64,000 bases of DNA from Antedon bifida (lineage: Eukaryota > Echinodermata > Crinoidea > Comatulida > Antedonidae), in contig OY727099.1 in NCBI GenBank assembly GCA_963402885.1, forward strand, positions 26,183,001 through 26,247,000, in the 5' to 3' direction. Every line of letters begins with the position of its first letter. Position 1 is the stretch's first letter. The notes beneath the pieces were generated by a model. It worked only from the letters and a program-made list of their open reading frames with translations. It had not been told where the DNA came from and searched no databases. This document shows, piece after piece, positions 58,601 through 61,600 of the stretch. The position numbers were made by a program, and so were the translations under genes.

Positions 58601-61600
58601 AACTAGTTTGAATATCAATATTACCTGGTCATCAGTTTTTCTATAGGTTTTGGCAGGTTGCGTATAAGAGGTGGTCTTTTACCTAGAAAAAAATAACATC
58701 AAATAGATTTACACTATTAAAACACAAAAAAAACAGCAAAAAATAATCTGACATAGGTATAAATTAACAAGAATAGGGGGTTGGCTGTGGTGGCTCTTCA
58801 CAGGAAAGTGACCCCTTATTAGGGGTATCCGAAAGAAGGGGTTCTACTGTATGTACAAATAAATAAATATTGTTTTATTTTATTTAAAAAAATGTCATAC
58901 ACATCCAACAGCAAGCACAAACTCGCCAATTACAGGATGGATAAACTATTTTTAAATTTATTCTGCTTATAAACCGAGTCTCATTTGAGGCTTAGGGAGT
59001 GGAGTTGAAAGAGTTGTGAGTTACAACCATGGCACTAGGTCAGGATTGAACCCAGGACCTTGGGATTGGAAGGTAAGCATGTTAACCACCAAGCTATAGC
59101 TCCACTATTTATTTATTAACTAGTTTGTTATTTTACCTTGATGTACTGCCCACATAATTCTGAAGGCTGGACCCCCAATCTCACTAAATGGTTTACGTCT
59201 AGTGATCACTTCCCATAGTATTATACTCCAGCTAAAGACATCACATCGTTCACTGTATTGACTTCCTGTGTAAACAAATTTATAATTGGTTACAGATTTA
59301 AAATAAAATGTATTTAAAATGTACGTTTCATTGAAAATACTGCACTCTTAGCTTCCTCATTTAACAAAAGAGTTTGGAAAGTGAAATTGATTTATTATAA
59401 TTTGTATTGTAGTTGAAAAACATTCAACCATAACTTGTAAGTAAATTTAGAAATAACATGTTTAAAATTATCAGTTATTATTAAATGTCTAAAGGAATTT
59501 TAATTAAAGGCTACATGTATTTCAAGTTTAAACTGAAAAACAATTTAAAACTATTTTTATTATAACCAATCAATTTGTTATCTAATTTATTACTTATTGT
59601 TTTGATTTGTTTTATGTTCAATAATTTTGTGTTCAGCCTATTTAATTAATGTAAATGCAAAGATTTCAGATATTGCGTTGATATACAATCGAGTTTGAAC
59701 AATATCATGAAAGCCCCAGTGGTTAATAAACTAATGGTTAAGACATCTGCATATCAAGCAGAAGGTTCCGGGTTCAAATCTCGGTTGGGTCGACTTTTTC
59801 TCATTCTCACAGATCAAATTAATTAATAAATTTCAGTATATCACCGGGCGGTTTATAATTAATGTTCTGTGCCTGATGTGTTTAGATATATCTATACCGA
59901 AATAAATAAATATTGTCAGCTATAAATAAACTTGCCTTCAAAGACTTCAGGCGCCATCCAGGCGGCACTCCCTTTGTTGTTTGTCATGTACGTCTGTATA
60001 TCACAAGCTGTACCAAAATCACATATCTTAAGTACTGTTCCACCAGCAACTAATAAAAGACTAAAAACCAAAATCACATATCTTAAGTACTGTTCCACCA
60101 GCCACTAATAAAAGACTAAAAAGCAAAATCACATATCTTAAGTACTGTTCCACCAGCCACTAATAAAAGACTAAAAAGCAAAATCACATATCTTACGTAC
60201 TGTTCCACAAGCAACTAATAAAAGACTAAAAAGCAAAATCACATATCTTAAGCACTGTTCCACCAGCCACTAATAAAAGTCTAAAAACCAAAATCACATA
60301 TCTTAAGTACTGTTCCACCAGCCACTAATAAAAGTCTAAAAACCAAAATCACATATCTTAAGCACTGTTCCACCAGCAACTAATAAAAGACTAATTAATA
60401 CCAAAATCACATATCTTAAGTACTGTTCCACTAGCAACTAATAAAAGATTAAAAAGCAAAATCACATATCTTAAGTACTGTTCCACCAGCCACTAATAAA
60501 AGACTAAAAACCAAAATCACATATCTTAAGTACTGTTCCACCAGCCACTAATAAAAGTCTAAAAACCAAAATCACATCTTAAGTACTGTTCCACCAGCCA
60601 CTAATAAAAGTCTAAAAACCAAAATCACATATCTTAAGTACTGTTCCACCAGCCACTAATAAAAGACTAAAAAGCAAAATCACATCTTAAGTACTGTTCC
60701 ACCAGCAACTAATAAAAGACTAAAAACCAAAATCACATATCTTAAGTACTGTTCCACCAGCCACTAATAAAAGTCTAAAAACCAAAATCACATCTTAAGT
60801 ACTGTTCCACCAGCAACTAATAAAAGTCTAAAAACCAAAATAACATCTTAAGTACTGTTCCACCAGCAACTAATAAAAGACTAAAAACCAAAATCACATC
60901 TTAAGTACTGTTCCACCAGCCACTAATAAAAGACTAAAAACTTCACACACTTCCTCTCAAACATTTAAGCTCTGTCTACATTATCAAATTTTATGTGACA
61001 AAAAATCTGATTTGCCCAAATATGGACACAATGACATTATCACTACCATAATTATTAGACGACATCACACTTTTTTGTGAAACTTTTCTTTCTTTCTTTC
61101 TTTTATTCAATTTTTCACACTTCAAAAATAATACAAGTTATGTGAAACATTAAGGTAATCAAACTAATTTAAACTAGTTTTGATAGTTTAGACAGAGCTT
61201 AAGTCTTACTTGAACTTTGACCTTTTTTACAGAGCTACTAACAACCAATGAGTGCGTTAAATACATGTTTCATTACAAAATACGTTGTGTTATGAGGAAA
61301 AAATTCCAAACTACCACTTTTATTTATTTATTTTATTTGAACCATATTTAATGAGGGTGATCCATCTAGCAATTGCTGATCATTTGGGACCCTCAGAACA
61401 GATACAATACACAAAATACAACAATAACAGTAAAGTTAAAGAAAATCAAAAACCAAAAAATAAAATTAATTACATAATACTAAAAATTCAATAATAATTA
61501 ATCGACTTACTTTGCAGGCTTAAGATCCCGATGAATAAGGGCTTTGGGTTTCATACTATGTAAATATGACACACCTCGTGAGCACTGGTAGGCCCAACTC

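Follow-up and report, generated by a model that had tools for sequence, protein, structure and literature searches.

How does a splicing machinery find one exon when the end of the preceding intron and the start of that exon have been copied, over and over, ahead of it? The question is raised by a 64,000-nucleotide stretch of the genome of the crinoid Antedon bifida (contig OY727099.1, positions 26,183,001 to 26,247,000; this whole stretch is called the window, and positions are counted from its first letter). The minus strand of the window encodes TAK1 (MAP3K7), and directly upstream of the start of exon 4 of this gene, at 60060, lies a tandem array of sixteen extra copies of the intron 3/exon 4 boundary. 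The array is real and probably a neutral boundary minisatellite. A probability of roughly 0.8 is assigned to the reading that it arose by tandem duplication, as in the boundary repeats of lancelets known as "mirages," that it is removed as intron, and that the last acceptor is mostly used.

The kinase domain predicted from the window is nearer to TAK1 than to other MAP3Ks: exons 1-5, once joined, find TAK1 as their top PDB match (E 1.2e-124), and the next kinase group (MLT) follows at 7.7e-40. Exon 3 ends in phase 2 (CCT GCA AA) and exon 4 begins T CTT TTA TTA GTT GCT GGT GGA, giving PANLLLVAGG, so that the two are in frame and align to the PDB TAK1 chain, as an earlier note on this DNA had assigned them. 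The first five exons, all placed by exon joining (splice sites are marked by a slash), are:
63123-63191, minus strand: TAK1 exon 1, with the start codon.
62214-62324, minus strand: TAK1 exon 2.
61511-61764, minus strand: TAK1 exon 3, to ...RDLKPA plus AA, with the donor AAA/GTAAGT.
59936-60060, minus strand: TAK1 exon 4, 125 nt, whose acceptor is the last array unit and whose donor is AAG/GCAAGT.
59137-59265, minus strand: TAK1 exon 5.
Later exons continue to about 53361 (those past exon 5 were placed by eye, and the final exon is excluded). The gene looks single-copy by sequence: a search of the genome (315.6 Mb, 27 contigs) in which the best 150 of 209 candidates were scored found no close second TAK1, and outside this locus the match with the lowest E-value is 38% identical. 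The last acceptor, therefore, presumably works.

Tandem Repeats Finder (TRF) reports a single array at this place, 60012-60941, with a period of 55, 17.0 copies, and 93% matches; its score of 1588 is the highest of the 61 TRF rows in the window. The unit split agrees with the sixteen extra copies of roughly 55 bases that the earlier note had described. The start given there, 60061, stands, and the end moves from 60945 to 60941, where the repeat stops:
60061-60941, minus strand: sixteen extra copies (units 1-16) of the intron 3/exon 4 boundary, from TRF, the unit split, and a 29-base core search.
60014-60060, minus strand: unit 17, the true first 47 nt of exon 4, with the acceptor GTTTTTAG/TCTTTT, from the unit split and exon joining.
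60448-60450, minus strand: the junction of unit 10, TTTTTAA instead of TTTTTAG, the sole extra copy without an acceptor AG, from the unit split and acceptor scoring.
Each repeat unit (53-58 nt) comprises the intron end GTTTTTAG followed by the initial 47 nt of exon 4 (17 residues). In the 5' to 3' direction of the minus strand, TCTTTTATTAG...GATTTTG plus GTTTTTAG occurs sixteen times ahead of the real exon. Numbering begins with the copy most distant from the real exon: by the minus-strand split, the exonic +1 bases of the extra units run from 60933 (unit 1) to 60115, and that of the real exon is 60060. Units 1, 2, 3, 5, and 7 are 53 nt long, unit 10 is 58 nt, and the remaining ten are 55 nt. 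With unit 10 lacking its AG, the seventeen acceptors first counted in a row are reduced to 16 sites that keep AG. When the 29-base core was searched across the genome, ungapped and with at most 3 mismatches, it gave 12 matches, all in the array: one in the real exon and one in each of the 11 extra units free of a 2-nt deletion. A 1.2-kb query found no array sequence elsewhere in the genome among the best 40 of 2876 candidates scored, and none of 25 other TAK1 boundaries has an 80% ungapped 40-nt copy within the gene. The locus shows two marks of a mirage: tandem copies span an intron/exon boundary, and many but not all copies retain the AG or GT signal (AG in 15/16 extra copies here).

The consequences of joining exon 3 to each copy are uniform in outcome and varied in detail. 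All sixteen upstream copies lead to a stop inside the array, and only the acceptor at 60060 reads on into TACDIQ, which upholds the claim that the last acceptor alone continues into the activation loop. An ending of DFGF and a stop, expected earlier of the upstream acceptors, is found in six units; four others (units 9, 13, 14, and 15) end in DFAF and unit 10 in DFGIN. Likewise, the early TGA ascribed to the shortened units terminates four of the five after VLKM, and unit 2, which lost this TGA through a G>T change, reads ...LFWFLDFY before its stop. The stops lie 128-961 nt before the exon 4/5 junction. Through an upstream copy, exon 4 would measure 180-998 nt, versus 125 nt through the true acceptor.

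The copies appear to have evolved without visible coding constraint, judging from their substitutions and from the frameshifted units. Comparison of the 47 exonic nucleotides of the sixteen copies with the real exon yields seven substitution types, too few for a strong constraint test, of which two are synonymous, against a fraction of 0.277 expected without constraint; the synonymous differences pointed out earlier do exist, but they imply no constraint. A frameshifting 2-nt deletion is present in 5/16 copies (units 1, 2, 3, 5, and 7), all within units 1-7 at the far end of the array (P = 0.0048, assuming independent placement). The five probably go back to a single deletion that was passed between units by copying, and this in turn speaks for array turnover. 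Among the 16 extra units there are 13 distinct full-unit sequences, with both shared and private variants.

Under the favored reading, a tandem duplication of about 55 bp, covering the 3' end of intron 3 and the 47 nt that open exon 4, would have founded the array, and slippage or unequal exchange would then have expanded and reshuffled the units. Neutral expansion, one of the two readings offered in the earlier note, fits the data, since the copies combine an unconstrained mix of synonymous and nonsynonymous changes with frameshifted units and one AG-less unit, and since lancelets provide precedents. By a rough estimate, about 14% of random 55-bp segments of TAK1 touch a junction, and no particular cause has to be invoked for an array at such a place. 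Exon 4 and its donor would be recognized jointly, as a unit of 125 nt, and exon 3 would mostly join the last copy; the upstream copies would lose out, by exon definition, because of the far longer exons (180-998 nt) that they would make. The array would then be spliced out as intron, and some transcripts that leak into the copies closest to the real exon (units 14-16) would be cleared by nonsense-mediated decay (NMD).

Two places in or beside the array bear on how its splice signals might be read:
60934-60967, minus strand: the left flank of unit 1, purine-rich, with an extra AG 7 nt before the acceptor AG; by acceptor scoring it has the weakest acceptor (-6.5; others -2.4 to 8.1).
60191-60199, minus strand: the T>G change of unit 14, which creates TAC/GTAAGA, the best-scoring GT within the repeats (1.05; 95 GT scored).
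The acceptors of units 2-9 and 11-16 score from -2.4 to 2.7, the true acceptor scores 1.28, and the 12 other TAK1 acceptors range from -0.3 to 8.1. One GT in the flank ahead of unit 1 scores 1.30, from the same set of 95. The acceptors of units 2-14, 16, and 17 are preceded by CTTAA, its A lying 22-27 nt ahead of the junction (24 nt at the true acceptor), then by an immediate AG and an AG-free stretch (19-24 nt between AGs); at the unit 15 acceptor, CTTAA was destroyed by the T>G change of unit 14. In human introns, an AG directly following the branch point is skipped, and the distribution of predicted branch points has its maximum at -24 (PMC2991248). By this AG-exclusion rule (PMC2991248), the true acceptor is expected to have its branch point in unit 16, in exon-derived sequence, where GTACTTAAG, with its A about 24 nt from the acceptor, may be the working site. 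The intron end would thereby have been shifted into copied exon. Intron 3 may now terminate in exon-derived sequence, as the copies with CTTAA, an AG-free stretch, and AG, along with the seemingly crippled outermost acceptor, would suggest. Masking of the upstream acceptors by RNA structure was considered and rejected, since the array RNA (minimum free energy -221) folds no better than shuffled sequences (-220.9 +/- 6.9; z -0.01), 11 of 20 shuffles being equally good.

Several observations weigh against the favored reading. The splice-site and branch-point matrices are approximations. Of the 15 upstream copies that keep AG, nine equal or surpass the true acceptor in score, so local strength would fail to explain a choice of the last one, and a plain first-AG rule would pick an upstream copy, with loss of the protein. 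The donor of exon 4 (59936, minus strand) is a non-canonical GC, otherwise a near-perfect donor match, and was scored without a penalty for GC. CTTAA is a modest signal, as 9/12 other TAK1 acceptors hold a better branch-point candidate, and unit 1 has it too, at 33 nt. To these is added the small number of substitution types. The size of the array is also unusual against the genomic context, sampled as 20 random 10-kb stretches (20 of 98 drawn; 200 kb): the three sampled arrays with at least 10 copies have periods of only 22-23, and TRF scores in the sample reach no more than 1038, versus 1588 for the TAK1 array. The frequency of arrays, on the other hand, speaks for the favored reading. For periods of 20-200, the sample contains 56 arrays, of which 16 have 3 or more copies and 3 have 10 or more; the corresponding counts in the 64-kb window are 26, 9, and 1. 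Tandem arrays are thus common in this genome, and the TAK1 array is exceptional in size.

The alternative that survives best, although still unlikely, concerns a neighbor of the array:
60960-61207, no strand assigned: an element resembling a miniature inverted-repeat transposable element (MITE), with 29-nt inverted ends (86%) at 60960-60988 and 61179-61207.
Insertion of this element might have harmed the original branch-point region, and duplication might have supplied a better, exon-made 3' splice site, so that the array was initially useful. A distance of about 25-30 nt separates the end of the MITE-like element from the acceptor of unit 1. Sequence related to 60960-61084 turns up in 11 of the 20 sampled stretches, and the window has further copies, some of which start at TTAA. 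That the unit 1 acceptor is the weakest of all and has an AG 7 nt upstream, while the scores of most of units 2-16 fall among those of the weaker real acceptors, is as this account would have it. However, unit 1 retains its CTTAA and may have decayed once it became redundant, and the additional copies need no such cause.

It is less likely again that the array acts as a splicing throttle, the second reading of the earlier note, in which useful upstream-acceptor use yields kinase-dead fragments ending near DFG or, more plausibly, transcripts for NMD, and copy number sets the TAK1 level. Stops located 128-961 nt upstream of the exon 4/5 junction are far enough away for NMD under its usual distance rule, and all sixteen copies, the AG-less unit 10 included, supply one; AG is present in 15/16, nine of which match or exceed the true site. 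Recent duplication alone would also leave AGs intact, however, the copies show no visible constraint, and the fold gives no sign of a folding switch. Lancelet mirages, moreover, are described as leaving splicing undisturbed (PMC3087553, PMC3902484). The throttle finds no support in the sequence data. Equally doubtful is a scheme in which the 3' splice site of intron 3 was rebuilt from coding sequence, the VLKICDFG codons serving as branch point and pyrimidine tract, after the original acceptor had weakened, perhaps by the MITE-like insertion, and in which near-equal acceptors leak a tunable share of transcripts into NMD.

Very improbable is an intermediate of intron birth, whereby a copy that gains a donor, such as unit 14 with TAC/GTAAGA, turns into a small exon, a model put forward for the globins of lancelets (PMC3087553). 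The T>G change of unit 14 did create the best GT inside the repeats, but its score lies below those of 11/13 TAK1 donors scored, and splicing the resulting 29-nt exon to exon 4 would shift the frame into an immediate stop (...VACGTVLFY). Stretching of one or a few copies by mis-assembly, for which tandem arrays are a known source, is just as improbable, given that 13 distinct units of 16, with shared and private variants, are not identical echoes, and that the exon and its flanks are intact in a 27.5-Mb contig.

Elsewhere in TAK1, an array at 56650-56737 (27 bp x 3.3, 98% matches) was considered as a second mirage and rejected, as its repeat begins within the intron, a few bases past the junction, which it excludes; the exon before it ends at the donor AAA/GTGAGA. 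The exon ...MTLDTRLQ, placed by eye, seems to close at a weak donor, CAG/GTTTTC (54063, minus strand), with a score of -3.57, the lowest of 13. Further arrays of the window, at 33806-34150 (84 bp x 4.1) and 38838-39138 (39 bp x 7.6), are possibly coding. Along another contig (C7), at about 11.6-17.8 Mb, there are nine pairs of myosin-head matches; every pair hits the same two parts of the profile, at a spacing of 2.8-3.7 kb and with scores that are alike, a sequence pattern that suggests amplification of a myosin gene. The mitochondrial contig (C27; 15,844 bp; genetic code table 9 assumed) carries nad1, nad2, and nad6 on one strand and cox1, cox2, nad3, nad4, nad4L, nad5, and cob on the other, with nad4L located between nad4 and nad5; nad2, cox3, and atp6 were named by eye. 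A crinoid study gives nad1, nad2, and nad6 as the only protein genes on the light strand (PMC10013537). A rearrangement of nad4L is called unique within crinoids in a title by Scouras and Smith (2006). Starfish have the same strand pattern, so it is mainly the position of nad4L that makes a crinoid origin of the contig likely.

Repeats of this kind are best known from lancelets. In the globin genes BflGb6 and BflGb9, minisatellite-like tandem duplication of an intron/exon boundary is described (PMC3087553). As in TAK1, the duplicated segment of BflGb6 consists of the 3' end of an intron and the 5' part of an exon, many but not all globin copies carry AG/GT, and signs of concerted turnover are seen (PMC3087553). 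Unlike in TAK1, the units are 150-160 bp, present in 6 or 3 copies by haplotype, BflGb9 has a single duplicate of 157 bp, RT-PCR (reverse transcription polymerase chain reaction) was performed, and gene and phylum differ (PMC3087553). The authors take their data to suggest that regular splicing is unhindered despite AG/GT in many copies, and they propose intron birth from them (PMC3087553). The Adh3 mirages, as summarized there, also span an exon-intron boundary, with units of 10-72 bp, and leave regular splicing undisturbed; the somatic length instability reported in Adh3, its identity, and its phylum set it apart from TAK1 (PMC3087553). PGBD5 and troponin C are further lancelet cases, in other genes and another phylum than TAK1; PGBD5 has few imperfect copies (3 x 108 bp), and the troponin C mirages are said to yield no aberrant mRNAs (PMC3902484). 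Internal tandem repeats of human segmental duplications resemble the TAK1 array in being exon-intron boundary minisatellites able to change gene structure, and differ in giving novel introns and alternative transcripts and in residing in recent paralogues as opposed to a single-copy kinase (PMC2812944). Only these lancelet and human cases were recognized in a literature coverage that lay mostly outside subscription papers and held no TAK1-directed query, so that "unreported outside lancelets" is a weak claim; echinoderm-directed queries brought up nothing beyond the PGBD5 report, and a search on duplicated acceptors listed no paper on that subject. Reported hosts of mirages have so far been cephalochordates, which is a feature of their distribution and no part of their definition. 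The TAK1 array would place mirages beyond lancelets, in a new gene and a new phylum, the echinoderms, and within an apparently single-copy signaling kinase, the catalytic core of which straddles the repeated junction. With sixteen near-identical acceptors and only one that is productive, it amounts to a natural experiment on exon recognition, in which first-AG scanning is set against exon definition.
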